This document shows, one piece after another, positions 15,852 through 27,002 of a stretch of 34,463 nt of DNA. Made by a program: the position numbers and the translations under genes. The stretch's first letter is position 1. Each line of letters starts with the position of its first letter. This DNA is from Burkholderiales bacterium (lineage in GTDB: Bacteria; Pseudomonadota; Gammaproteobacteria; Burkholderiales; Casimicrobiaceae): the NCBI GenBank assembly GCA_020847675.1, contig JADLBN010000103.1, positions 1-34,463 on the forward strand, written 5' to 3'. Under the pieces are notes generated by a model. That model was not told the DNA's origin. It worked only from the letters and a program-made list of their open reading frames with translations, and ran no database searches.

Positions 15852-16472
15852 ATGAACGACCTGCCGCTCACCGCCGCCACCGCCTCGGTCTGGATCTACT
15901 GGTTCATCGTCGGCGCGATGTCGTGGCGGGTGCGCCGTCGCACGCGCCGGCTCGCGGGCGTCGTGCCCGAGCAGGGTATCGAGCAGGCGATGTGGCTCGT
16001 CTGGGTCCCGATGGTGATCTTCTGGATGGCGCTGCCGATGATCGCCGGGTCGAGCCGCGCACCGCAGCTCTCGGTTCCGGCCTGGGCGCGCGAAGGGGCG
16101 TATGCGAACCTGCGCGGCGTCGCAGGGGTCGTGGCGCTCGCCTCGCTCGTGGCGACGATCGAGTGCTGGAAGCGCATGGGACGGAGCTGGCGCATGGCCG
16201 TGACGCCCGGCGAGCGCACCGAACTCGTCACCGGCGGGATGTACCGGTCGATCCGGCATCCGATCTACACGCTGTCGATCCTGCTCGTCGCCGCGTGCGC
16301 GATCGTGCTGCCGACGCTGCCGATGCTCGCGGTGGCGCTCGCCAACACGACGCTGCTGAACCTCAAGGCCCGCAACGAGGAGCGGCACCTGCTCGACATG
16401 CACGGCGAGACGTATGCCGCGTACCTCCGCTCGACCGGACGCTTCCTTCCGCCCCTGTTCGCGAGCCGCTGA
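15852..16472 (+). CDS. Isoprenylcysteine carboxyl methyltransferase-like (ICMT/PEMT) membrane protein
   Basis: A 206-residue protein with about five membrane helices and the ICMT/phospholipid-methyltransferase C-terminal signature: GGMYRSIRHPIYTLSILL, then NEERHLLDMHGETYAAYLRSTGRFLPP. This family methylates lipids or prenylated substrates with S-adenosylmethionine at the membrane face; many bacterial members are uncharacterised. The ATG at 15852 follows a TACAAT -10 box by 37 bases. Its last 59 bases overlap the start proposed for the next gene. It may modify the product of the lipid cluster or be an unrelated first gene; position is the only link. Confidence 0.85.
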   Translation: MNDLPLTAATASVWIYWFIVGAMSWRVRRRTRRLAGVVPEQGIEQAMWLVWVPMVIFWMALPMIAGSSRAPQLSVPAWAREGAYANLRGVAGVVALASLVATIECWKRMGRSWRMAVTPGERTELVTGGMYRSIRHPIYTLSILLVAACAIVLPTLPMLAVALANTTLLNLKARNEERHLLDMHGETYAAYLRSTGRFLPPLFASR

Positions 16473-17406
16473 CGCGCTTGCGGCCGCGGCGCTCGCCGCA
16501 GTGCTCGCCGCGACCCCGGCGGCGCGGCCGCTCGCCGCGGATCTTCCGGACTGCGAACGCCCGGAGAGCTTTGCCGCGCGCGAGTTGCCGTCAGGTTCGG
16601 CGCCGCGGATCGTGCTGCTCCAGGGGTCGCTCGGGCTCGTGACCATGGAGCCGCTCGGCGCCTTCCTCGCCGCGATGGGCTACCCGGCGCGCCAGCTTGC
16701 GGATCCGCGCACCGGCGTCATGACGACCGACAGCGACCTCGACGGACGCCTGCTCGCCGGGATGCTCGCGTGGCAGACGGAGCACGACGGCGTGCGGCCG
16801 ATGATCGTCGGGCACAGCAAGGGCGGCGGCGTGGTGATCGACACGCTGCGCGCGCTCGCCGGACTGCGCGGGAGCGACGTCGCGGTCGTGGATCCCCGCA
16901 CCGGGAACGCCGAGCCGCGCGACCGGTTCACCGATCCGGTGACGCGGCGCGCGACGCCGGTGACCGAACTGCGGCTCCCCTACGCGGCCGCGATCGCCAC
17001 CGGCCGGATGCCGCGGATCCTGCGCGGACAGTTCGAGCTGGCGCGCGTGCTGCGCGAGGTGCCGGACAGCGCCGAGCGGTTCACCGGCTTCACGATTCCC
17101 TTCGACCCGATCGCGGGCGCGTTCGCGGGAGACGAGGACCCGTACGTCGCGACCGGCAGCGCGAAGGTGCGCAACGTCGTGCTGCCGGCCGCCACGAGCC
17201 ACATCGGCGCGCCCCTCACCGAGCACCTCGCCCGCGACGTCGCGACGCGGACCTGGATCGAGCGTTACCGGCCCGGCGGTTCGCAACCCTGGCCCGAGGG
17301 TCCGGACACGACCAACCTCGTGCTGGCCGCGGAGCTCTGGTACGACGTCAAACGGGCGTGGTGCGCCGAGGCGCAGCGCGCCGCGCAGGCGCAACGGGGG
17401 GGGTGA
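16414..17406 (+). CDS. Exported alpha/beta hydrolase (paralogue 1)
   Basis: The 330-residue protein has an Ala-rich signal-like stretch (about 20-42, ALAAAALAAVLAATPAARPLA) and an alpha/beta-hydrolase core with nucleophile Ser135 in GHSKGGG and the likely catalytic His263 in AATSHIGAPL. It is clearly related to the lipoprotein hydrolase two genes downstream: shared blocks include AMGYP..., LLAGMLAWQ.EHD..RPM.VGHS and SAKVRNVVLP..TSH. The start is uncertain. The only in-frame ATG is at 16414, giving a 59-base overlap with the upstream gene and an Arg-rich leader; a GTG at 16501 would cut the signal. Substrate unknown; an acyl ester or lipid is plausible from context. Confidence 0.75.
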   Translation: MPRTSARPDASFRPCSRAADALAAAALAAVLAATPAARPLAADLPDCERPESFAARELPSGSAPRIVLLQGSLGLVTMEPLGAFLAAMGYPARQLADPRTGVMTTDSDLDGRLLAGMLAWQTEHDGVRPMIVGHSKGGGVVIDTLRALAGLRGSDVAVVDPRTGNAEPRDRFTDPVTRRATPVTELRLPYAAAIATGRMPRILRGQFELARVLREVPDSAERFTGFTIPFDPIAGAFAGDEDPYVATGSAKVRNVVLPAATSHIGAPLTEHLARDVATRTWIERYRPGGSQPWPEGPDTTNLVLAAELWYDVKRAWCAEAQRAAQAQRGG

Positions 17407-18696
17407 GTGCGCGGCGCCTTCAACCTGTTCCAGGCGATGATGTTGCGCTGGCGCTCGCGGCACCCGTACAACGCGGTGCACGCCGCACGGGTCGACCGGC
17501 CGCTCGACGAGGCGCACCTGCGCGCGACGCTCGCCGCGGCGCTCGAGGAGGCCGGCCTCACCGGCTACACGTTCGACGCGGCGCGCGCGCGCTACGAGTG
17601 GCGCGGCGGACCCGCCGAGGTGGTTCTCGAAGTCGTGGTGCCCGCGGGCGCGATCGACGAGGCGCTGCGCTCGACGATCGAGCGCTCGCTCGACGCGCCG
17701 TTCGCGCGCACGGGTTCCCACGCTCCGATCCGATTCTCGGCGATCGACGACGGCGACCGCTTCTGGCTCGTGCTCGCCTACGACCACGTGGTCGCGGGCG
17801 GGGACTCGGCCGTCGCGTTGCTGGGCGCGCTGTGCGCCCGCTACCTCGGCGCAGCTCCGCTCGACCGCCTCGAGCGTCATCCGGCGCGCGACCGTCGCCT
17901 GGGTGCCCGCCATCCGCTGCGCTCGGTCGCGGCGGCAGCGGCGCTGCCCCGTCTCGCCGCCCGTGGCAAGCGGGCGAGACGGGCTCCGGGACTCGAAGTG
18001 CGGGACGGCCGCAACGCGTTCGTGATGGCCGAGATCGACGCCGCGACCGTGGACCGGATCGCCGCGACGGCGGAGCGCTGCGGAGCGACACGCAACGACG
18101 TGCTGATGGCGGCGCTGATCCGCGCCGTCGCACCGCTTCGTCCGGCGCCGGCGGCGGGATCGCGGCGCCGGGAGATTGCCGTCGCGTCGATCGCGAACAT
18201 CCGCGGCGACTGCGCCGGACCCGCGGGACGCGTGTTCGGGCAGTTCCTGTCGTCGTTCCGGGCCGCGTACGCCGATCCGTTGAACGCGGCGCTCGACGAC
18301 GTCATCCGCGCGGTTCATGCGGAGAGCCGCGACCTCCGTGCGAAGCGGCGCTACCTGCGGTCGCTCTTCGCGATCGGCCTGTCGGGGCTCGCCTGGCGCG
18401 TCGTGCGCGACGACATGCGCGACTCGCTGTTCGCGAAGCACTACCCGGCCTGGGCAGGGCTCACGACGCTGGCCGTGCCGGGTCTGTGGAACGCGATGTC
18501 GCCGGAGGCGGGCAGCGGACCGGCGGCGTACCGGCGCGGCGTTTCGACCGGTCCGCTCGCGCCGATCGTCGTCGCGGCGACGTTCGCGGGGAACGCGCTC
18601 GGGATCGGTGTATCCTTCCGGCCCGCCGCCGTGGCCGAGGCCGACGCGCGAGCCGTCGTCGAACGTTTCGTTGCCACCCTTCGCTCCCTGAGATGA
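17407..18696 (+). CDS. Condensation/PapA-like acyltransferase with altered HHxxxDG motif
   Basis: The 429-residue protein resembles the CoA-dependent acyltransferase fold (condensation domains, PapA, wax-ester synthases). The active-site segment is AYDHVVAGGDS at about 125-134. Against the family pattern HHxxxDGxS, the catalytic second His is kept (His127), but the first His is Asp and the conserved Asp is Gly. The C-terminal part has a block ANIRGDCAGPAGRVFGQFLSSF, like the conserved latch region of such enzymes. PapA-type relatives move acyl chains from carrier proteins to alcohols, which fits a cluster with a dedicated ACP. The GTG at 17407 directly follows the previous stop (TGAGTG); the stop overlaps the next ATG. 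Confidence 0.65.
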   Translation: MRGAFNLFQAMMLRWRSRHPYNAVHAARVDRPLDEAHLRATLAAALEEAGLTGYTFDAARARYEWRGGPAEVVLEVVVPAGAIDEALRSTIERSLDAPFARTGSHAPIRFSAIDDGDRFWLVLAYDHVVAGGDSAVALLGALCARYLGAAPLDRLERHPARDRRLGARHPLRSVAAAAALPRLAARGKRARRAPGLEVRDGRNAFVMAEIDAATVDRIAATAERCGATRNDVLMAALIRAVAPLRPAPAAGSRRREIAVASIANIRGDCAGPAGRVFGQFLSSFRAAYADPLNAALDDVIRAVHAESRDLRAKRRYLRSLFAIGLSGLAWRVVRDDMRDSLFAKHYPAWAGLTTLAVPGLWNAMSPEAGSGPAAYRRGVSTGPLAPIVVAATFAGNALGIGVSFRPAAVAEADARAVVERFVATLRSLR

Positions 18697-19763
18697 CGTC
18701 TGCCTGCAAGCGCGCCGCGTCGACGTGGGCGCTGGTCGCCGCGCTTGTGCTGTCCGGATGCGCGGCCACCGCGCCGTTCGCGGTCGAGACGCTCGAGCCG
18801 AAGGCGGGCGAACATACGGTGCTTCGCACCCACCCGATCGGCCGGGATCTCGGCGACCGGATCCTCGCACTCGACCCGATGCACGTTTCCGCGAGCGACG
18901 TCGCGAACGTGCTGGCGCAGGCGCCCGCGCCGCGCATCATGCTGATCCACGGCGGCATCTACCCGGTCTATCTCGCGATGGAGTCGTTCGGGTCGTTCCT
19001 CGCCGGCATGGGCTACCCGGAGGCGAAGATCCGCGATCCGGCCAGCGGCGCCTGGTCGTACAGTCCCTATGGGTACACGCCGCGACTCGCGGGCATTCTC
19101 GCCTGGCAGTACGAGCAGGACGCGATGCGCCCGATGCTGGTCGGCCACAGCCAGGGCGGGCTCTACGCGGTCAAGGTGCTGAAGGAACTGGCCGGCGTCT
19201 ACCGCCCGTCGCTCGAGGTGTGGAATCCGGTGACCGACGCGGTCGAAACGCGGGACGCGATTGTCGACCCCTATACCGGCCGGATGCGCCCGGCGATCGG
19301 GGTGCCGGTGAGCTATGCGTCGGCGATCGGCGCGGGCGGCTGGTCGTTGATCCTGCCCAACCAATGGGACGATTTCACGAGCCTGCGCAAGATTCCGGAC
19401 ACGGCCGTCGAGTTCACCGGGTTCGACATCGATGACGACCCGTTCGCCCTGTCGTTTCCGGGAACGCCGTTCGAGGTTCCCTACGTGGCGGCGGGAACGG
19501 CGAAGGTGCGAAACGTCGCGCTGCCGACGACCACCAGCCACGTGCTGGCCCCGCTGTCGAGGGACTTCCTGGACGACGCCCCGGTGCGCCGCTGGATCGA
19601 CGACTACGTGCCGGGACGGGCGCCTCGCGCGGACGACCCGCCCGGGGTCGCCGCCGGGCAGGCGCTCTGGGCCGCGGATGTCTGGCACAGCATCAAGAAG
19701 CACTGGGTGCTGGAGTTGCAGCGCATGGTGCGCGCGGAGCGCGTACTGGCCGCGGGCGGTTAG
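18693..19763 (+). CDS. Alpha/beta hydrolase lipoprotein (paralogue 2)
   Basis: This 356-residue predicted lipoprotein has a signal peptide ending in the lipobox VLSGC (Cys23), so it is probably anchored in the outer or inner membrane facing the periplasm. The hydrolase core has nucleophile Ser153 in GHSQGGL and likely catalytic His283 in TTTSHVLAPL. It is a paralogue of the hydrolase at 16414, with which it shares the flanking blocks MGYPEAKIRDPASG, LAGILAWQYEQDAMRPML and AKVRNVALP. Start ATG 18693 overlaps the stop of the acyltransferase gene (ATGA). Substrate unknown. A periplasmic hydrolase in a lipid-synthesis operon could release, trim or transfer the product. Confidence 0.82.
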   Translation: MTSACKRAASTWALVAALVLSGCAATAPFAVETLEPKAGEHTVLRTHPIGRDLGDRILALDPMHVSASDVANVLAQAPAPRIMLIHGGIYPVYLAMESFGSFLAGMGYPEAKIRDPASGAWSYSPYGYTPRLAGILAWQYEQDAMRPMLVGHSQGGLYAVKVLKELAGVYRPSLEVWNPVTDAVETRDAIVDPYTGRMRPAIGVPVSYASAIGAGGWSLILPNQWDDFTSLRKIPDTAVEFTGFDIDDDPFALSFPGTPFEVPYVAAGTAKVRNVALPTTTSHVLAPLSRDFLDDAPVRRWIDDYVPGRAPRADDPPGVAAGQALWAADVWHSIKKHWVLELQRMVRAERVLAAGG

Positions 19764-19814
19764 AATGGCGATCCGTGGCGGCCTTCGCTCCCGCGCCTAT
19801 CGCCGATCGCTCGC

Positions 19815-20570
19815 ATGACGCTTCCGCTCGCTGGCAGGACCGCGCTCATCACCGGCGGCGCGCGCGGCATCGGCCGCGCCACCGCGTTGAAGCTCGCGCG
19901 TTCGGGCGCGAACGTCGCGATCAACTACTACAACAGCCACGACGAGGCCGAGGCGCTCGCGGCCGAAGTCCGCGCGCTGGGGCGCGAGGCCACGACGATG
20001 CAGGGCAGCGTCGGCGATCCGGACAGCGTCGACGAGATGTTCGCCGCGTTCGATGCTGCCTTCCCCCGGCTCGACATCGTCGTGTCGAACGCGGCGTCCG
20101 GCGTGCTGAAGCCGGCGATGGAGATGAAGCTCAAGCACTGGCGCTGGTGCATGGAGATCAACGCGTTCGCGCTCGCGCTCGTCGCGCAGCACGCCGCACC
20201 GCGCATGAAGGACGGCGGGCGCATCGTCGCGCTGTCGAGTCTCGGGGCGTACCGCGCGATCCCGAACTACGGCTTCGTCGGCGCCTCGAAGGCCGCGCTC
20301 GAGGCGCTCGTGCGCTCGCTCGCGCAGGAACTGGGACCCCGCGGCATCCGCGTGAACACGGTGAACGCGGGCGTGGTCGACACCGACGCGCTCGGGTACT
20401 TCCCGAACCGGGACGCGCTGCTCGCCGAGTACGCGGCGCGCACGCCCGCGGGGCCGACGCTCGCGCCGGAGGACGTGGCGAACGCGATCTACCTGCTCTG
20501 TCTGCCCGAGGCGGACAAGATCAACGGCACGACGCTGTTCGTCGACGGCGGCTTCGCGGTCTCCGGATGA
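19815..20570 (+). CDS. fabL: Enoyl-ACP reductase, FabL type (NADPH)
   Basis: A 251-residue short-chain dehydrogenase matching FabL of Bacillus subtilis, which reduces trans-2-enoyl-ACP as the last step of each fatty-acid cycle. It has the cofactor motif TGGARGIG (about 13-20). Most telling is Tyr152-x6-Lys159 (NYGFVGASK), the enoyl-reductase spacing, instead of YxxxK. FabL-like blocks NAASGVLKPAMEM, HWRWCMEINAFAL and VVDTDALGYFPNRDALL also fit. The ATG at 19815 is 51 bases past the lipoprotein gene; a TAGAAT at 19761-19766 may be an internal -10. The stop overlaps the fabG ATG. FabL is mainly known from Firmicutes and Helicobacter, so its place here is notable. Confidence 0.85.
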   Translation: MTLPLAGRTALITGGARGIGRATALKLARSGANVAINYYNSHDEAEALAAEVRALGREATTMQGSVGDPDSVDEMFAAFDAAFPRLDIVVSNAASGVLKPAMEMKLKHWRWCMEINAFALALVAQHAAPRMKDGGRIVALSSLGAYRAIPNYGFVGASKAALEALVRSLAQELGPRGIRVNTVNAGVVDTDALGYFPNRDALLAEYAARTPAGPTLAPEDVANAIYLLCLPEADKINGTTLFVDGGFAVSG

Positions 20571-21328
20571 GCGCGCCCGTGTCCGGACTCGCGGGAAGGA
20601 CCGCGCTCGTCACGGGCGGCGGGCGCGGCATCGGCCGCGCGATCGTCGGGCGCCTCGCCGCCGACGGCATGGACGTGACGTTCCTCTACGCGAGCAACGA
20701 CGCCGCGGCGCGGGAAGTCGTGGACGCGGCGAGCGCGGCCGGCCGAAGCGTGGCCGCCGACCGGGTCGACGTGCGCGACGCGCAGGCCTGCGTCGACGCG
20801 GTCGAGCGCGTGATCGAGCGGCGCGAGCGCATCGACGTGCTGGTGAACAATGCCGGGGTCATCCGTGATAACCTTTTGGTCGCGCTCGAGCCGGACGACG
20901 TGCGGACCGTGCTGGAGACCAACGTGACGGGGCTGTTCAACGTCACGCGCGCGGTGGCGCCGCACATGACCTCGCGCCGGTCGGGACGCATCGTGAACCT
21001 GAGCTCGGTCGCCGCCACGCGCGGCGGGAGGGGCCAGTCGAACTACGCGGCGAGCAAGGGAGCGATCGAGGCGTTCACGCGGGCGATGGCGGTCGAACTC
21101 GGCCCGCGCGGCATTCGCGTGAACGCGGTCGCGCCGGGGGTGATCGACACCGAGATGTCGAGGGACGTGCGGGAGCTCGCGGGCGACGAGGCGCTCAAAC
21201 GCATCGTGCTGCGGCGTTACGGGACGGTCGACGAAGTCGCGAACGCCGTGTGGTATCTGGCGTCCGATCTCGCGTCGTACGTGACAGGCACCGTGCTGCA
21301 CGTGGACGGCGGATTCAAGATGGAGTGA
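20567..21328 (+). CDS. fabG: 3-oxoacyl-ACP reductase FabG
   Basis: The 253-residue SDR carries the full FabG signature: TGGGRGIG (16-23), NNAGVIRDNLL (94-104), catalytic Asn119, Ser147, Tyr160 and Lys164 (NYAASKGAIEAF), then RVNAVAPGVIDTEM. It reduces 3-oxoacyl-ACP with NADPH. Its pairing with an ACP, dehydratase, ketosynthases and an enoyl reductase argues for a dedicated chain-building role, separate from the housekeeping fabG expected elsewhere. The ATG overlaps the FabL stop (ATGA), and the ACP follows 5 bases after its stop. Confidence 0.9.
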   Translation: MSAPVSGLAGRTALVTGGGRGIGRAIVGRLAADGMDVTFLYASNDAAAREVVDAASAAGRSVAADRVDVRDAQACVDAVERVIERRERIDVLVNNAGVIRDNLLVALEPDDVRTVLETNVTGLFNVTRAVAPHMTSRRSGRIVNLSSVAATRGGRGQSNYAASKGAIEAFTRAMAVELGPRGIRVNAVAPGVIDTEMSRDVRELAGDEALKRIVLRRYGTVDEVANAVWYLASDLASYVTGTVLHVDGGFKME

Positions 21329-21333
21329 TCGGC

Positions 21334-21747
21334 ATGGCGGACAACATCACGCAGCAGGACATCGACGCGGTCTATCCGAAGGTGTCGGCGACGATCGCCG
21401 ACGCGCTCGGCTGCGACGAGGGCGAGGTCAAGCGCGACAGCTCGCTGATCGACGACCTCGGCGCGGAGTCGATCGACTTCCTCGACCTCGTGTTCCGGCT
21501 CGAGCGCGCGTTCAAGGTCAAGATCCCGCGCGGCAAGATCGTCGAGGACTCGCGCGGCACGCTCTCCGAGGCGGAGTTCGAGCAGAAGGGCATCGTGACC
21601 GATCAGGGACTCGCGCAGCTGAAGGCGTTCCTGTCGGAGGTGCCCCCGGAGCGCTTCCGCTCGCCGCTCAAGGTGGTCGAGATCCCGCGACTGTTCACCA
21701 CCGAGACGTTCTGCAAGCTCGTGATCCGCGCGCAGCGGAGCGGATGA
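21334..21747 (+). CDS. Acyl carrier protein, AcpXL-like, with a long C-terminal extension
   Basis: This 137-residue carrier protein has its 4'-phosphopantetheine site at Ser46 in LIDDLGAESIDFLDLVFRLE. The segment FLDLVFRLERAFKVKIPRGKI closely resembles rhizobial AcpXL (IDDLG.DSLDFLDIVF..DKEFGIKIP), the carrier for very-long-chain lipid A acids, more than housekeeping AcpP. About 45 residues follow the usual ACP end, including EVPPERFRSPLKVVEIPRLFTTETFCKL, a conserved-looking tail of unknown role that may dock a partner. The ATG at 21334 has GGAG upstream. Its activating enzyme is probably the AcpS domain at the end of the operon. Confidence 0.88.
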   Translation: MADNITQQDIDAVYPKVSATIADALGCDEGEVKRDSSLIDDLGAESIDFLDLVFRLERAFKVKIPRGKIVEDSRGTLSEAEFEQKGIVTDQGLAQLKAFLSEVPPERFRSPLKVVEIPRLFTTETFCKLVIRAQRSG

Positions 21748-21748
21748 C

Positions 21749-21850
21749 TCCCCCCCGAAGCGCGCTGCGCGCGCCTCCCCCCAGGGGGCGGTCCGGCGTC
21801 CTCGGGGCGGCCCGTCGGACGCCGGTGACATCCCCCCGAAGCGCGTTGCG
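21749..21850 (+). repeat. REP-like repetitive element inside the operon
   Basis: The 111-base gap between the ACP and dehydratase genes holds two copies of CCCCCCGAAGCGCGYTGCG (21751-21769 and 21832-21850, one mismatch, period 81). Between them are an imperfect CCTCCCCC/GGGGGCGG hairpin and a perfect 9-bp inverted repeat CCGGCGTCC/GGACGCCGG (21793-21801 and 21817-21825). This looks like the extragenic repeats common in Burkholderiales genomes. It may act as an mRNA structure that tunes expression across the operon. Confidence 0.7.
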
Positions 21851-21858
21851 GGCCTGAG

Positions 21859-22665
21859 ATGCCGGGACGCTTCCGCGCGTTCTCGTTCGTAGACCGCATC
21901 CTCGCGCACGCGCCCGGCGCGACAGTGCGCGGCCGTTACGCGATTCCGGCCCGCGCGAGCCGTTTCCCGGCGAGCCTCGCCGCCGAGGCCGTGGGCCAGC
22001 TCGCGGCCTGGACCGCGATGAGCCGGCTCGACTTTCGCGTGCGGCCGGTGGCCGGACTCGCTGGCGAGACGCGGTTCGGGCGGCCGTTCGGTCCCGGCGA
22101 CGCGCTCGACCTCGAAGTCGAGATGGAGAGCGCGACCGACACCGACGTCGCCTACCATGGCCGCGCGCTGGTCGGCGGCGAGGTCGCGCTGGTGCTCGAG
22201 CACGCGCTCGGTCCGATGCTGCCTGCGGCGGAGTTCGACGACCCCGCCGCGATGCGCGCCGACTTCGAGACGCTGATCGGCGCAGGCGCCCCCGCGGATC
22301 GCTTCGACGGCGTGGCAGCTCCCGAACTCGCCGTCGAGGAGCTGGAGGCGGGACGCAGGCTCCGCGCGAGTCTCGCGATACCCGCGGATGCCCCTTACTT
22401 CGCCGACCACTTTCCGCGCCGCCCGGTGTTCCCCGCGACGCTCCTGATGGACGCGCTGGGCAGCCTCGCTGCGCGCGCGGCGGGCGACGGCGCGCGCGTG
22501 GTGGGCATGCAGGACGTCAAGGTGCGCGCGTTCATGCCGCCGGGCGAGACGCTCGCGGTCTTCGTCGATCTCGACGGGGACGGCGCGCTCGCGGGACGGG
22601 TGGTGGCCCGCATGCAGGGCAAGCCCGCCGCCACGGCGAAGGTATCGCTGGAGCGTGTGCGATGA
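21859..22665 (+). CDS. Double-hotdog 3-hydroxyacyl-ACP dehydratase (FabZ-like)
   Basis: The 268-residue protein looks like two fused FabZ-type hotdog domains. Domain 1 (about 5-122) matches FabZ around FSFVDRIL, then AAEAVGQ with the acidic Glu43, and AGLAGETRFGRPFGPGD, but has RFP where FabZ has the catalytic HFP. Domain 2 (about 165-268) has HFPRRPVFPATLLMDALG with the catalytic His184 and Asp198 where FabZ has Glu. In FabZ the His and Glu of one site come from different subunits, so the fusion could make one composite site from His184 and Glu43. Start ATG 21859 has a poor ribosome site. The stop overlaps the ketosynthase start (ATGA). Confidence 0.78.
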   Translation: MPGRFRAFSFVDRILAHAPGATVRGRYAIPARASRFPASLAAEAVGQLAAWTAMSRLDFRVRPVAGLAGETRFGRPFGPGDALDLEVEMESATDTDVAYHGRALVGGEVALVLEHALGPMLPAAEFDDPAAMRADFETLIGAGAPADRFDGVAAPELAVEELEAGRRLRASLAIPADAPYFADHFPRRPVFPATLLMDALGSLAARAAGDGARVVGMQDVKVRAFMPPGETLAVFVDLDGDGALAGRVVARMQGKPAATAKVSLERVR

Positions 22666-23969
22666 CGGCGAAACGCAGGGTGGCGATCACCGGGATCGGG
22701 CTCGTCACGCCCGCCGGCAACGACGTAGCGTCCACGTGGGCGACGTTGCGCGCAGGAAGGAGCCAGGGCGCTCCGATCACGATCTTCGACGCATCCGGCT
22801 TCTCGACCCGGATCGCCGCCGAAGTGAAGGGCTTCGACGCGCGCGCGGTGATCGACGACCGGCGCCTCCTCAAGTTCGCGAACCGCGCGCACGCGTTCGC
22901 GCTCGCCGCGGCGGATCAGGCGATCGCGGACGCGGGCGTGAAGCCAACGCACGAGACGCGCGAACGCTGGGGCCTGTCGGTCGGCACCGGCATGATGGGC
23001 ATGGCGTGGCCGGAGCTCTCGACGCTGGGTCTCGCGGCGGGCGACGGGGAGGCCGTCGATCCCGAGCGGCTGGTCGCGAGCGACACCGGCCGCGACCCGA
23101 TGGTGTTCTGCCGCAGCCAGACGACCGCCGGGCTCGCGCTCCTCGGGCGCCGCTTCGGCATCGGCGGCTACTCGACCTCGGTGCACACCGCCTGCGCGTC
23201 GGGCGGTCAGGCGATCGGCACCGCGCTCAAGCTCATCAGGCGAGGCACGATCGACCGCGCGCTCGCCGGCGGTTTCGATTCGATGATCAACCCGGTGGGA
23301 CTCGCCGGCTTCTGCCTGCTGGGCGCGGTGTCCGCCGACAACGACGCCCCGTCGAAGGCGAGCCGGCCGTTCGACGCGACGCGCAACGGCTTCGTGCTGG
23401 GCGAGGGCGCCGGGTTCGTCGTGCTCGAGGACTGGGATCTCGCGAAGGCCCGCGGAGCGCGCATCTACGCGGAACTCGCGGGCGATGGCAATTCGCTGTC
23501 GAGCTACCGGATCACCGATTCGCACCCGTCCGGCGACGGGCCGATCCAGGCGATGCGCTGGGCGCTGGCCGACGCCGACGCATCGCCGTCCGACGTCGAC
23601 TACGTGAACGCGCACGGCACCTCGACGCCGATGAACGACGCCTCAGAGAGCGCGGCGATGCGCGCGGTGTTCGGTGACGGGATCGCGCGCGTGCCGGTCA
23701 GTTCGACCAAGAGCACGATGGGCCACCTGATCGCGGCGGCCGGGGCCGTCGAGGCGGTGGTCTGCACGCTCGCGATCCGCGACGGCGTGCTGCCGGTGAA
23801 CGCCAACTACGCCAATCCCGATCCGGACTGCGCGCTGAACCTGGTCGTCGGACGGGAGCGCGCGCAGAGCGTACGCGTCGCGATGTCGAACTCGTTCGGC
23901 TTCGGCGGCAGCAACAGCAGCCTCGCGTTCCGTCATCCGGACTACGACGGCGGACGGAGGCGAGCGTGA
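22662..23969 (+). CDS. Beta-ketoacyl-ACP synthase (KAS II/FabF family), catalytically complete
   Basis: The 435-residue ketosynthase has the whole Cys-His-His set: Cys178 (VHTACASGGQAIG), His318 (NAHGTSTPMND) and Lys350/His355 (TKSTMGHLIAAAG), plus GGFDSM, RPFDATRNGFVLGEGAG and the C-terminal NSFGFGGSNSSL. It extends acyl-ACP by Claisen condensation with malonyl-ACP. It overlaps the dehydratase gene upstream and the second ketosynthase downstream (GTGA), so the pair is likely made in equal amounts and may form a heterodimer. The arrangement matches the fabF2XL-fabF1XL pair of rhizobia and the KS/CLF pairs of aryl-polyene and type II polyketide clusters. Confidence 0.92.
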   Translation: MTAKRRVAITGIGLVTPAGNDVASTWATLRAGRSQGAPITIFDASGFSTRIAAEVKGFDARAVIDDRRLLKFANRAHAFALAAADQAIADAGVKPTHETRERWGLSVGTGMMGMAWPELSTLGLAAGDGEAVDPERLVASDTGRDPMVFCRSQTTAGLALLGRRFGIGGYSTSVHTACASGGQAIGTALKLIRRGTIDRALAGGFDSMINPVGLAGFCLLGAVSADNDAPSKASRPFDATRNGFVLGEGAGFVVLEDWDLAKARGARIYAELAGDGNSLSSYRITDSHPSGDGPIQAMRWALADADASPSDVDYVNAHGTSTPMNDASESAAMRAVFGDGIARVPVSSTKSTMGHLIAAAGAVEAVVCTLAIRDGVLPVNANYANPDPDCALNLVVGRERAQSVRVAMSNSFGFGGSNSSLAFRHPDYDGGRRRA

Positions 23970-25234
23970 AGGGCGTCGTCGTCACCGGGCTGGGCGCGAT
24001 CTGCGGCGCGGGGAAGTCGCCCGGGGCGATCGTCGATGCGGTGCTCGAAGGGCGGAGCGCTCTCGCGCCGATCGGGACCTTCGACGTGACGTACTGGCCG
24101 CGGCCGGTCGCTGCGGAGATCGCCGACTACAACGCCGCCGCGCTCGCCGGCGATCGGAAGCTCCTCAAGGTCATCCGGCGCACCGACGTCGTCGGACTCT
24201 ATGCCGCGAGCGAGGCGGTTCGTGCGTCGGGACTGGACGCGCATCGCGACGGACTCTCCGGGGAAGAGGGCGCGCGCTTCTCGGAGCGCACCGGGCTCTA
24301 CGCGGGCTCGGGCGGCGGCAACTACCAGAACCAGTACGACTACTTTCCGCTGATCGGCGAGACCGGCGGCGCGCTGCCCGCGTTCGGCCACGAACTCGGC
24401 AGCGGCGTGAACCCGATGTGGCTCCTCAAGTCGCTGCCGAACAACGTGCTGTGCCACGTCGGCATCCGTTTCGGCCTCAAGGGCCCGAACGCCTGCATCA
24501 CCAATCACAGCGTGAGCGGGATGCTCTCGATCGTCGAAGCTGCCGCCGGAGTCGCCAACGACGAGGCCGACCGCGCGGTCGCGGTGGGGCACGACACGCC
24601 GATCGAGCCGCAGAACGTCCTCTACTACCACGGGGCAGGCCTCCTCGCGAAGGAGATCCTGAGGCCCTTCGACGCGTCGCGCGACGGGAGCCTGATGGGC
24701 GAGGGCGCCGGCGCGCTGGTGGTCGAGACCGAGGCTTCCGCGAAGGCGAGGAGCGCCCCGGTGCTGGGCAGCATCCTGGGTTCCGGCCACGCGACCGAGA
24801 GCGAAGGGCTGCTCGCGGTTCGCGACGACGGCAGCGGTCCGGCGCAGGCGATCCGCGCGGCGCTCGACGACGCGGGCGTTACGGCGCGCGAGATCGGGAT
24901 GATCGTCGCGCACGGCAACGGCACGCCGGCTTCGGATCGCAGCGAGGCACTCGCGATCCTCGAAACGTTTGGCACGCACGCGCCGCCAGTGACCGGGTTC
25001 AAGTGGGCGATCGGGCACCTGATCGCGGCGGCCGGCGCGATCGAGACGGTGCTCGCCTTCGAGGCGCTTCGTCGCGGGGTCGTGCCCGGCATTCCGGTGC
25101 TCGACCGGGTCGATCCCGAATTCGCGTCGCTCCCGGTCGCGCGCGAGCCGCGTGAGCCGCGGGGCAACGTCGCGCTCGTGTTGTCGCGCGGCTTCGGCGG
25201 AACCGACGCCGCGTTGGTCGTTCGCGGCGCGTGA
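23966..25234 (+). CDS. Ketosynthase-like partner with Cys-to-Ser change (chain-length-factor-like)
   Basis: The 422-residue protein has the FabF fold but an altered nucleophile: where active ketosynthases have TACxSG it has NHSVSG, putting Ser182 in the Cys position. The other catalytic residues are kept: His316 (IVAHGNGT) and Lys346/His351 (FKWAIGHLIAAAG). It may decarboxylate malonyl-ACP without condensing, or serve as a chain-length factor for the active KS encoded just upstream. A direct Ser-acyl mechanism cannot be excluded. The start is GTG 23966 with GGAGG, overlapping the previous stop. A 163-base gap without a gene separates it from the next one. Confidence 0.85.
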   Translation: MKGVVVTGLGAICGAGKSPGAIVDAVLEGRSALAPIGTFDVTYWPRPVAAEIADYNAAALAGDRKLLKVIRRTDVVGLYAASEAVRASGLDAHRDGLSGEEGARFSERTGLYAGSGGGNYQNQYDYFPLIGETGGALPAFGHELGSGVNPMWLLKSLPNNVLCHVGIRFGLKGPNACITNHSVSGMLSIVEAAAGVANDEADRAVAVGHDTPIEPQNVLYYHGAGLLAKEILRPFDASRDGSLMGEGAGALVVETEASAKARSAPVLGSILGSGHATESEGLLAVRDDGSGPAQAIRAALDDAGVTAREIGMIVAHGNGTPASDRSEALAILETFGTHAPPVTGFKWAIGHLIAAAGAIETVLAFEALRRGVVPGIPVLDRVDPEFASLPVAREPREPRGNVALVLSRGFGGTDAALVVRGA

Positions 25235-25397
25235 CTTCCGGCGATGGGCCCCGCGGTCGCCGCCGTTCCTCCGGAGGTGCGGGACGGGCGACGGCCCGCC
25301 TCGCGCGGGAGGGCGTCCTGAACCTCCACGACGGTCCGCTTGCGCCGCCGTGTCGGGCGCGGGGCTGACGCGGCAGGGCACGGGGAGAGGGCGCGCC

Positions 25398-26627
25398 ATG
25401 GCCGAGTCGAGGGAGCGCTGCGGCATCGACACGGTCGAAGTCGCGCGCGTCGCGCGATTGGTCGAAGCGAGCGACGCCGCCGCGCTGGCCCGGCTCTACT
25501 CGGCGCGCGAACTCGCCGACGCGGGCGAGGGGCCCGGCCGCAACGCCTCGCTCGCCGCGCGCTTCGCCGCGAAGGAAGCCTGCCTCAAGCTGTTCCCGCG
25601 CGAGACCGCGCTCGAGACGATCGCCGCGGCCGATTTCTCGGTCGAGCGCGACGCCTACGGTGCGCCGCAGGTCGTCCCGAGCGCGGCGGCCGAGGCCGTC
25701 ATGGGGCGCTACCGGATCGGCCGCATCGCGCTGTCGATGTCGCACGACGCGACGAGCGCGAACGCGGTCGCGATTGCCGAGCACGCGCCCATCGACGTTC
25801 CCGCGATCGGGCGGTTCGTCTACCGGTTTCTCCCGCTGCGCCGCGACGTGGTGATCGGGAACCTGCAGCGCGTGTACGGCGGCCGCATCGACGAGTCCGA
25901 GATCGTCCGGCTCGCCCAGGCGCATTACGCGCACCTCGCCCGGCTCGCCGGCGAGTTCCTGCGCTTCCGCTGGCTCTCGCCGGCGCGCAAGGCCGCGCTG
26001 GTGCGGGTCGAGAACCTCGAAGGGCCTGGCGGGCTGCGCGAGACGCACGCGCGCGGCAAGGGCGTGCTGATCCTCACCGGGCACTTCGGCAACTGGGAGG
26101 TCGCGACGGTCGCGGGGGTGCAGAAGTTTCCCGAGGCGCACGGGCGCTTTCATTTCGTGCGCCGCGCGATCAAGCCGCGCTGGCTCGAGGCGCTGGTCAC
26201 GCGCCGGTTCGTGCGCGCCGGCTTCGGCGTGCTCCCCAAGCGCGGCTCGCTCGACGCACTGTGCGAGCGGCTCGAGGCGGGGGATCTGGTCGTGTTCCCG
26301 TTCGACCAGCACGCGCGCGGGCGCGACGCCGTGGTCGTCGACTTCTTTGGTCATCCGGCGGGCACGTTCCGCAGCCTCGCGATCATCGCGCAGGCCACCG
26401 GCGCGCCGGTGGTGCCCGCCAGTTCGTGGCGCGAACCCGACGGCACGCACGTGCTGCGGTTCGAGCGGCCGCTCGAAGCCGTCGCGGACGCCGATCCCCG
26501 CGTCGAGGTCGCCGCGAACACGCGCGCGTTCAACGCCGCGCTCGAGCGGCTCGTCGTCCGCCGGCCCGAACAGTGGTGGTGGGTGCACCGGCGCTGGAAA
26601 GCGACCGAAGGATCGCGCGTCGGGTAG
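25398..26627 (+). CDS. Fusion of AcpS-type phosphopantetheinyl transferase and LpxL/HtrB-type acyltransferase
   Basis: One 409-residue reading frame holds two enzymes. Residues about 5-127 are AcpS-like: Asp11 (CGIDTVEVARV), the YSARELADA segment, and Glu60/Lys64 in RFAAKEACLK, the magnesium and CoA residues of holo-ACP synthase. Residues about 133-405 are a lipid A acyltransferase-like (LpxL/HtrB) domain with the HX4E motif HFGNWE (229-234), FPFDQHARG and the family end PEQWWWVHRRWK. The usual N-terminal membrane helix of LpxL is missing; the AcpS domain takes its place. No stop or start codon lies at the junction. ATG 25398 has a GGAGAGG site. It would activate the cluster's ACP and pass the finished chain to a lipid acceptor. 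Confidence 0.85.
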   Translation: MAESRERCGIDTVEVARVARLVEASDAAALARLYSARELADAGEGPGRNASLAARFAAKEACLKLFPRETALETIAAADFSVERDAYGAPQVVPSAAAEAVMGRYRIGRIALSMSHDATSANAVAIAEHAPIDVPAIGRFVYRFLPLRRDVVIGNLQRVYGGRIDESEIVRLAQAHYAHLARLAGEFLRFRWLSPARKAALVRVENLEGPGGLRETHARGKGVLILTGHFGNWEVATVAGVQKFPEAHGRFHFVRRAIKPRWLEALVTRRFVRAGFGVLPKRGSLDALCERLEAGDLVVFPFDQHARGRDAVVVDFFGHPAGTFRSLAIIAQATGAPVVPASSWREPDGTHVLRFERPLEAVADADPRVEVAANTRAFNAALERLVVRRPEQWWWVHRRWKATEGSRVG

Positions 26628-26926: not shown

Positions 26927-27002
26927 TGGCGCCCCGAACACGAATCGAACGTGCGACCTGTCCCTTAGGAGGGGACTGCTCTATCCACTGAGCTACCGGG
27001 GC
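26927..27002 (-). tRNA. tRNA-Arg (anticodon CCT)
   Basis: A full cloverleaf folds on the minus strand. The acceptor GCCCCGG pairs with TCGGGGC (one G-T), the D-arm is GCTCAGTGGATAGAGC, and the anticodon stem GTCCC/GGGAC has loop CTCCTAA. The T-arm is GCACG-TTCGATT-CGTGT, the discriminator is G, and CCA is encoded. Anticodon CCT (plus-strand 26967-26969) reads AGG, a rare codon in such a G+C-rich genome. Confidence 0.96.

Follow-up and report, generated by a model that had tools for sequence, protein, structure and literature searches.

The window analysed here, a stretch of 34,463 nucleotides that makes up the whole of one contig (JADLBN010000103.1, our C105) in the bin of a Burkholderiales bacterium of the family Casimicrobiaceae (3.76 Mb, 326 contigs, 89% complete), carries eleven plus-strand genes at positions 15852-26627 that form one operon (g1-g11), as had been stated in an earlier note made from the sequence alone. 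The operon is real and no chance cluster, because the same gene order recurs in unrelated genomes, and it consists of two modules, a seven-gene core that appears to build acyl chains (g5-g11) and an upstream four-gene block (g1-g4). Neighbouring genes overlap by four bases at four of the ten junctions (3/4, 5/6, 8/9 and 9/10), so that translational coupling is likely for these four pairs and not for most junctions; the claim of the note that the genes mostly join through ATGA/GTGA overlaps was too strong. Junction 2/3 abuts, junction 1/2 overlaps by 59 bases if g2 starts at 16414, and the remaining four junctions are gaps of 51, 5, 111 and 163 bases.

The residue counts given for the core refer to 51 sequence sets, namely the window's own and those of 50 complete loci; the other ten of the 60 described below were dropped for stops or short proteins. 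The first core gene, g5 (19815-20570, on the plus strand as are all genes of the operon), encodes a FabL enoyl-acyl carrier protein (ACP) reductase that scores 343.6 bits against the curated model NF005975 (cut-off 328). Its best PDB chain is 3oic, which we take to be the Bacillus FabL enzyme, at 227.8 bits, with the next chain at 144. The active site reads YGFVGASK, with the Tyr and the Lys present in 51/51 sets, and this Y-x6-K arrangement is described as the FabL-type active site in PMC5006077, where two FabL homologues cloned from metagenomes are reported to have complemented enoyl reductase activity. The setting of g5 differs from that of the Bacillus enzyme, since it lies in an apparently dedicated acyl cassette beside its own ACP and not with bulk fatty acid synthesis. 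The second gene, g6 (20567-21328), encodes a FabG-type 3-oxoacyl-ACP reductase of the short-chain dehydrogenase/reductase (SDR) type (YAASK; Tyr and Lys in 51/51). It is followed by g7 (21334-21747), a long ACP of 137 residues with a C-terminal extension (PF00550, 38 bits), in which the Ser is preceded by Glu in 51/51 sets and whose homologues are 136-146 residues long. The label AcpXL-like, which the note had given to this protein, is too specific, as g7 scores 43.1 bits against the AcpXL model (cut-off 83) and 54.7 against the general ACP model.

The fourth core gene, g8 (21859-22665), encodes a fused double-hotdog dehydratase of 268 residues with a FabA-like match (PF07977, 44 bits) on its C half. 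The N and C halves align best, weakly, to different dehydratase chains; a His in the C half is present in 51/51 sets and a Glu in the N half in 50/51 (the other has an X), which suggests that the two residues make up one composite hotdog active site. A FabF-like ketosynthase (KS) is encoded by g9 (22662-23969; TIGR03150 438.6 bits, below the cut-off of 493.75), and all four residues of its Cys-His-His-Lys set are found in 51/51 sequences. The last core gene, g11 (25398-26627), encodes 409 residues in which an AcpS domain (PF01648, 36.3 bits, residues 8-93) is fused to an LpxL-type acyltransferase (PF03279, 128.3 bits, residues 136-401). LpxL-type acyltransferases carry an HX4(D/E) motif, and in g11 the His is kept in 51/51 sets and the Glu in 50/51, while the Asp of the AcpS half is kept in 49/51 with two gaps. 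Profile matches thus bear out the family calls of the note for FabL, FabG, the KS proteins and AcpS-LpxL, as well as that of an ICMT-like protein for g1.

Between g9 and g11 lies g10 (23966-25234), a full-length KS partner. It has Ser182 in the nucleophile column (NHS), which agrees with the note's mention of a KS with Ser, and His316, Lys346 and His351 are invariant, the His-His-Lys set being retained in 51/51 sequences. The nucleophile column holds S in 23, T in 18, C in 7, A in 2 and G in 1 of the 51, and we trust this column because the match to g9 around the site is ungapped. Decarboxylation by KS enzymes requires the pair of His residues and not the Cys, and the loss of the nucleophile with retention of His-His-Lys would fit a decarboxylase that does the priming, or else a partner with altered catalysis. 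This natural series of S, T, C, A and G at one KS position, with His-His-Lys fixed, offers a probe of a nucleophile-less KS partner. We also considered g10 as a Ser enzyme of the DpsC kind, described with Ser-His-Asp in PMC12664062, and rejected this because the Ser is replaced by Thr, Cys, Ala or Gly in 28/51 sequences. Two loci found in our scan, L122 and L134 (10001-11260 in each), hold a g10-type KS alone, with no other core gene found in the locus; the bins of both carry further g10 loci (L137 and L117, with the same contig-name prefixes), and the lone gene is a free-standing paralogue.

To follow the core through named genomes, we ran a KS-based search with a 14-row g10 alignment, which gave 144 relatives, 80 of them kept as loci. 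All seven core genes are present in 60 of the 80, in identical order in 60/60 and over a span of 6,128-7,644 bases, so that a scatter of homologues with no shared neighbourhood, which the note had allowed for, is not what is found. Among the 20 incomplete loci there are 17 whose contig ends on the side where genes are missing; the others are L128, L122 and L134. In L128 (7827-12465, labelled Spartobacteria) g8-g11 alone are present, with other open reading frames (ORFs) upstream among which no FabL, FabG or ACP gene was found. Carriers of the core are labelled Burkholderiales, Alcaligenaceae, Gammaproteobacteria, Methylomirabilota, Verrucomicrobiota and Synechococcus sp. GFB01, and include the named Zwartia vadi, Z. 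panacis, Z. hollandica and Jezberella montanilacus. Most relatives among the loci are labelled Burkholderiales, Betaproteobacteria or Proteobacteria, and one near relative is labelled Casimicrobiaceae. The flanks of the core are unlike in the sampled loci, and the 20 mechanically picked ORFs beside these cores revealed no shared extra gene, belonging to unlike families or remaining unmatched except for hexapeptide-repeat proteins in two verrucomicrobial loci. Four loci (L108, L114, L138 and L155) come from bins with improbable labels (Akkermansia muciniphila, Bordetella parapertussis), whereas those of them that are in the tree fall among Verrucomicrobiota or Alcaligenaceae rows, and these species labels should not be trusted.

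To assess the agreement among the core proteins, we compared their distance matrices over the 51 sequence sets. The correlation lies between 0.82 and 0.93 for all 21 pairs of the seven proteins, and the highest value reached by a permuted matrix is 0.21 (200 permutations per pair); as judged from these distances, the agreement shows that the core proteins travel together. A quick tree was built from five of the seven core proteins (1,624 columns). The six rows from Verrucomicrobiota form one clade in it, one Methylomirabilota row stands beside this clade and a second at another place, and the row from the cyanobacterium falls within Pseudomonadota on a long branch, its placement being unsure. 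Some horizontal transfer of the core is likely on this pattern. One aligned row (L077) has a mis-framed N terminus. The cyanobacterial core, in Synechococcus sp. GFB01 (L154, 5751-12474), is of odd composition and adjoins a class I aminoacyl-tRNA synthetase gene, and it represents either a transfer or a contaminant contig.

The upstream block begins with g1 (15852-16472), an ICMT/PEMT-like integral-membrane methyltransferase of 206 residues (PF04191 33 bits and PF04140 31.8 bits, both above cut-offs). The next gene, g2 (16414-17406, start codon uncertain), encodes a probably secreted alpha/beta hydrolase with a GHSKGG motif that is 40% identical to its paralogue g4; in several relatives the g2 slot is vacant or g4 is the best match there. 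The product of g3 (17407-18696, 429 residues) is a putative acyltransferase of the PapA/condensation superfamily with His127 invariant in 21 aligned rows, and g4 (18693-19763) encodes a predicted lipoprotein alpha/beta hydrolase of 356 residues with a lipobox-like GCA and with Ser153, Asp249 and His283 invariant in 25 rows. Taken singly, g2, g3 and g4 gave no Pfam or NCBIfam match at E <= 0.001. The assignment of g3 to PapA is made because of profile matches. At E <= 1, Condensation (PF00668) is matched by 18/21 rows of the g3 alignment, with a best value of 7.4e-18, and PapA_C by 12/21; the window's own g3 matches Condensation alone, at E 0.028 and under the cut-off. The g3 profile also matches condensation-domain chains and the phthiocerol/phthiodiolone dimycocerosyl transferase 8s6l (E 0.00037). 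PapA and condensation acyltransferases have a motif of the HxxxDG type, of which g3 keeps an invariant His, with the Asp changed to Gly in the window member and HVIADG in L129. Rows of the g4 family gave weak Abhydrolase_6 matches in 7/25 cases. The note had spoken of export-side enzymes; an export-side role is plausible for the hydrolases g2 and g4, which have N-terminal signal-like stretches, and for these only. In L129 (299-868) and L142 (1663-2208), both verrucomicrobial, the PapA-like gene directly follows one for a hexapeptide-repeat protein, which is possibly a further member of the block. In L062 (18661-19842) the PapA-like gene was matched in three pieces near a contig end of genome G614, which holds another full-length PapA-like match on contig C87.

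In the window's own family the block and the core are carried together. At E <= 1e-55, g10 is found in 31/64 family genomes and in 21/22 of the genus (the window's own counted), and at E <= 1e-20, g3 is likewise found in 31/64; 30 genomes share both and 32 have neither, so that presence agrees in 62/64. The two genes lie on one contig in 23 of these 30, and in the other 7 the g10 contig ends before or within the block. The mismatches are G577 (g4 to g10) and G619 (g1 and g3 to g8), and because in each the other operon genes run on until the contig stops, we count the operon as carried by 32/64 family genomes and by all 22 of the genus. Longer stretches fetched from 20 genomes show all eleven genes in order in 7; in 4 more the g2 slot is taken by a copy closest to g4, and in 3 that slot is empty; 5 are cut by contig ends, and G010, which belongs to another family, has the core alone. 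The window's genome was the only one in which g3 was found in a draw of 200 genomes of the order, for which up to 8 candidates per genome were scored; one other genome, G010, has g10 at 60% identity. Although 88/200 genomes match g10 at E <= 1e-40, these matches, G000 and G010 excepted, are 31-37% identical, as other KS proteins also are. In a draw from the phylum, thin enough that it is no sign of absence, g10 at E <= 1e-55 was found in 1/398, the window's own genome.

Beyond the family the block is found with some cores and not with others. The PapA-like g3 is present in 22 of the 60 complete-core loci, it was not found in the other 38, and 30 of these have 4 kb or more of sequence ahead of g5, so that for these 30 the block is truly absent nearby. 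Together, g1, g3 and g4 are found in 19/80 loci, including the Verrucomicrobiota loci L138, L142 and L155, where the order is g3-g4-g1 and then g5; g1 is present in the family loci and in these three. Block and core stay together in two phyla, with differing gene orders, which indicates a functional link between the two. A comparable architecture is described for mycobacteria in PMC4183827, in which Chp2, a membrane-anchored alpha/beta hydrolase of 359 residues that transfers acyl groups on the periplasmic side, acts with PapA3 in acyltrehalose synthesis. The pairing of a PapA-type acyltransferase with an anchored hydrolase of near-equal size (359 against 356 residues in g4) is shared; the mycobacterial system differs in its Pks3/4 polyketide-synthase donor and its MmpL10 transporter, and the likeness is one of superfamily and architecture only.

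Taken together, these families and residues suggest that the core is probably a dedicated, self-contained type II acyl synthase that is fully reducing and may take its primer from malonyl-ACP, and whose chain would be delivered by an LpxL-type acyltransferase, and that in the window's family the PapA-like protein and the hydrolases may remodel the product. The chain-building side of this reading is well supported by families and conserved residues. The idea of a dedicated fully reducing line with its own ACP and terminal acyltransferase, put forward in the note, is retained here, but not as one eleven-gene unit, since what recurs is a seven-gene core with a block in some lineages. What is shown is how the genes are arranged and which residues they keep; from families and residues we infer the following steps, and the same holds for chain length, acceptor, priming and the order of the LpxL and PapA reactions. 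The AcpS half of g11 would load the phosphopantetheine arm onto the long ACP g7, and g10 would pair with g9, either making an acetyl primer from malonyl-ACP or acting as a chain-length partner. Elongation with malonyl-ACP by g9 would be followed by ketone reduction (g6), dehydration (g8) and double-bond reduction (g5), and because g5 reduces the double bond the chain is expected to be saturated and not a polyene. Once finished, the chain would leave g7 through the LpxL half of g11 and be placed on a lipid acceptor at the inner membrane. Where the block is present, in the window's family and in a few Verrucomicrobiota, g3 might acylate a hydroxyl or amine group of an acceptor, g2 and g4 might remodel or transfer chains outside the membrane in the manner of PapA3/Chp2, and g1 might methylate some group.

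Several observations weigh against this reading. The residue at +14 from the His of g8 is D in 38, N in 7, H in 3, E in 2 and Y in 1 of the 51, so that the usual acid is not kept, and g10 keeps its Cys in 7/51, so that the loss of the nucleophile is not general. A correlation of distance matrices is also expected from plain vertical inheritance, which gives much of it. The eleven genes include no transporter, glycosyltransferase or thioesterase. Standard fatty acid profiles of Zwartia, a cultured carrier, which were not aimed at very long or minor chains, list C16:0, C17:0 cyclo, C16:1 or iso-C15:0 as major acids (PMC10535154), a mild point against an abundant unusual chain. Finally, the window's own bin (89% complete) gave no FabI match, and FabL might serve general fatty acid synthesis there.

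That last point bears on how far FabL can be called dedicated. At E <= 1e-50, 58/64 family genomes match a FabI-type reductase, with scores of 196.8-452 bits that exceed the 337-bit cut-off of a narrower model in 9/64 (FabL itself scores 143). Since FabI coexists with the core in 26 of the 31 g10 carriers (it was not found in G000, G577, G597, G598 and G631), FabL is an extra reductase in the family. In the window's bin, 33 of the 38 SDR matches to g5 were inspected, and a clear Y-x6-K was seen in g5 alone, the others having mostly Y-x3-K and a few no clear motif. A dedicated role of FabL is thus well supported for the family and less settled for the window's bin.

A known system close in layout is the rhizobial cluster for very-long-chain lipid A, for which the order acpXL-fabZXL-fabF2XL-fabF1XL-adhlA2XL-lpxXL is given in PMC11901934, and the window's operon could be its counterpart, placing a membrane-spanning chain in lipid A. 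Both have a dedicated ACP, a dehydratase, a KS with a Cys-less partner and an LpxL-family acyltransferase in a similar order, and the LpxL domain of g11 belongs to the lipid A acyltransferase family. We nevertheless regard this as improbable. In a KS tree of 46 rows (quick search, support from the SH-like approximate likelihood ratio test only), g9 and g10, with 15 rows each, form one clade each, apart from both XL groups. We found acpXL-type genes in 13/150 genomes of a phylum draw and fetched three loci, in which three residues are missing from the FabF2XL-type KS (Cys, first His and Lys) and this partner precedes the active KS; g10, by contrast, has the full His-His-Lys set. The ACP of these loci has 93-105 residues against 137 in g7, and the acyltransferase has 310-327, is without an AcpS half and is just 25-29% identical to g11 over local matches. 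The six genes named for the rhizobial cluster include a dehydrogenase and no enoyl reductase, whereas the window's cassette has the extra FabL and AcpS and no dehydrogenase, and nothing found in our analysis shows a very long chain, which the note had thought possible.

A second alternative, which we also consider unlikely, is that g9 and g10 form a KS and chain-length factor (CLF) pair of a polyketide synthase, with g10 purely structural, making a partly reduced polyketide or polyene as a pigment or antioxidant lipid. A KS with a partner, a ketoreductase, a dehydratase, an ACP and a lysophospholipid-type acyltransferase are the plan of highly reducing type II systems (PMC10698177, PMC8358021) and are shared with aryl-polyene clusters (ApeC-ApeO, ApeR, ApeQ, ApeP), as in the E. 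coli locus. However, highly reducing type II polyketide synthases are described in PMC10698177 as KS-CLF, ketoreductase and dehydratase, giving polyenes, while among the 61 loci with g8-g11 and enough sequence upstream, FabL was found in 60 and missed in L128 alone. Extending KS enzymes are described as using Cys-His-His and Lys, and the aryl-polyene CLF as having 211 residues (PMC12664062); the CLF gene of the E. coli locus is small (723 bases), whereas g10 is full length with its His-His-Lys complete. The E. coli locus has no annotated enoyl reductase and carries two ACPs, an MMPL transporter, a LolA-like protein, a glycosyltransferase and an acyl-CoA synthetase; the window's operon is without the transporter, LolA, glycosyltransferase and synthetase set. 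In the KS tree, g9 and g10 also stand apart from the two E. coli aryl-polyene KS proteins (on long branches) and from eight FabF-like proteins of the same order, and Zwartia hollandica, a carrier of the core, is described as unpigmented (PMC10535154). By KS tree and gene content the operon is neither an acpXL nor an aryl-polyene cluster, in line with the separation from both types that the note had drawn. A third alternative is that the core is a housekeeping fatty acid operon, moved or kept as a back-up, that makes no special product. The full set of ordinary type II elongation steps and the lack of a FabI match in the window's bin would correspond to this, but it is very unlikely given the FabI-type reductases that accompany the core in most carrier genomes, the separation of its KS clades from the FabF-like proteins of the order, its own phosphopantetheinyl transferase (PPTase) and terminal acyltransferase, and its patchy distribution in the phylum draw.

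A dedicated, fully reducing acyl synthase is the reading we prefer, and a bolder form of it can be put forward tentatively. The core might be a portable, self-priming acyl synthase, found under the labels of four phyla, in which g10, paired with an active KS, makes the primer by decarboxylating malonyl-ACP and one fused protein both activates the carrier and delivers a saturated chain to an undescribed class of surface lipid, coupled in one betaproteobacterial family to a mycobacterial-type pair of PapA and hydrolase. If so, the host would have to supply no more than malonyl-CoA, the malonyl transfer step, reductant and an acceptor. Dedicated type II acyl lines found earlier, such as acpXL and those of the aryl polyenes, have each led to a lipid that plays a physiological role. 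The line described here is conserved over seven genes, combines an enoyl reductase with a PPTase-acyltransferase fusion and an odd KS partner, and recurs across numerous environmental bins as well as in named strains of Zwartia and Jezberella. Among the papers listed by our searches of one literature library, judged by title and the opening of the abstract, none dealt with the cassette or its product.

The surroundings of the operon in the window are ordinary, with genes for an M61 peptidase, a PEBP protein, a GST and an FAD oxidase upstream, and a DUF599 gene and a tRNA-Arg (26927-27002) downstream. Within the operon, the spacer between the ACP gene g7 and the dehydratase gene g8 holds two exact copies of CCCCCCGAAGCGCG on the plus strand (21751-21845), 81 bases apart, and an extended 19-mer of this sequence has a single occurrence in the whole bin.

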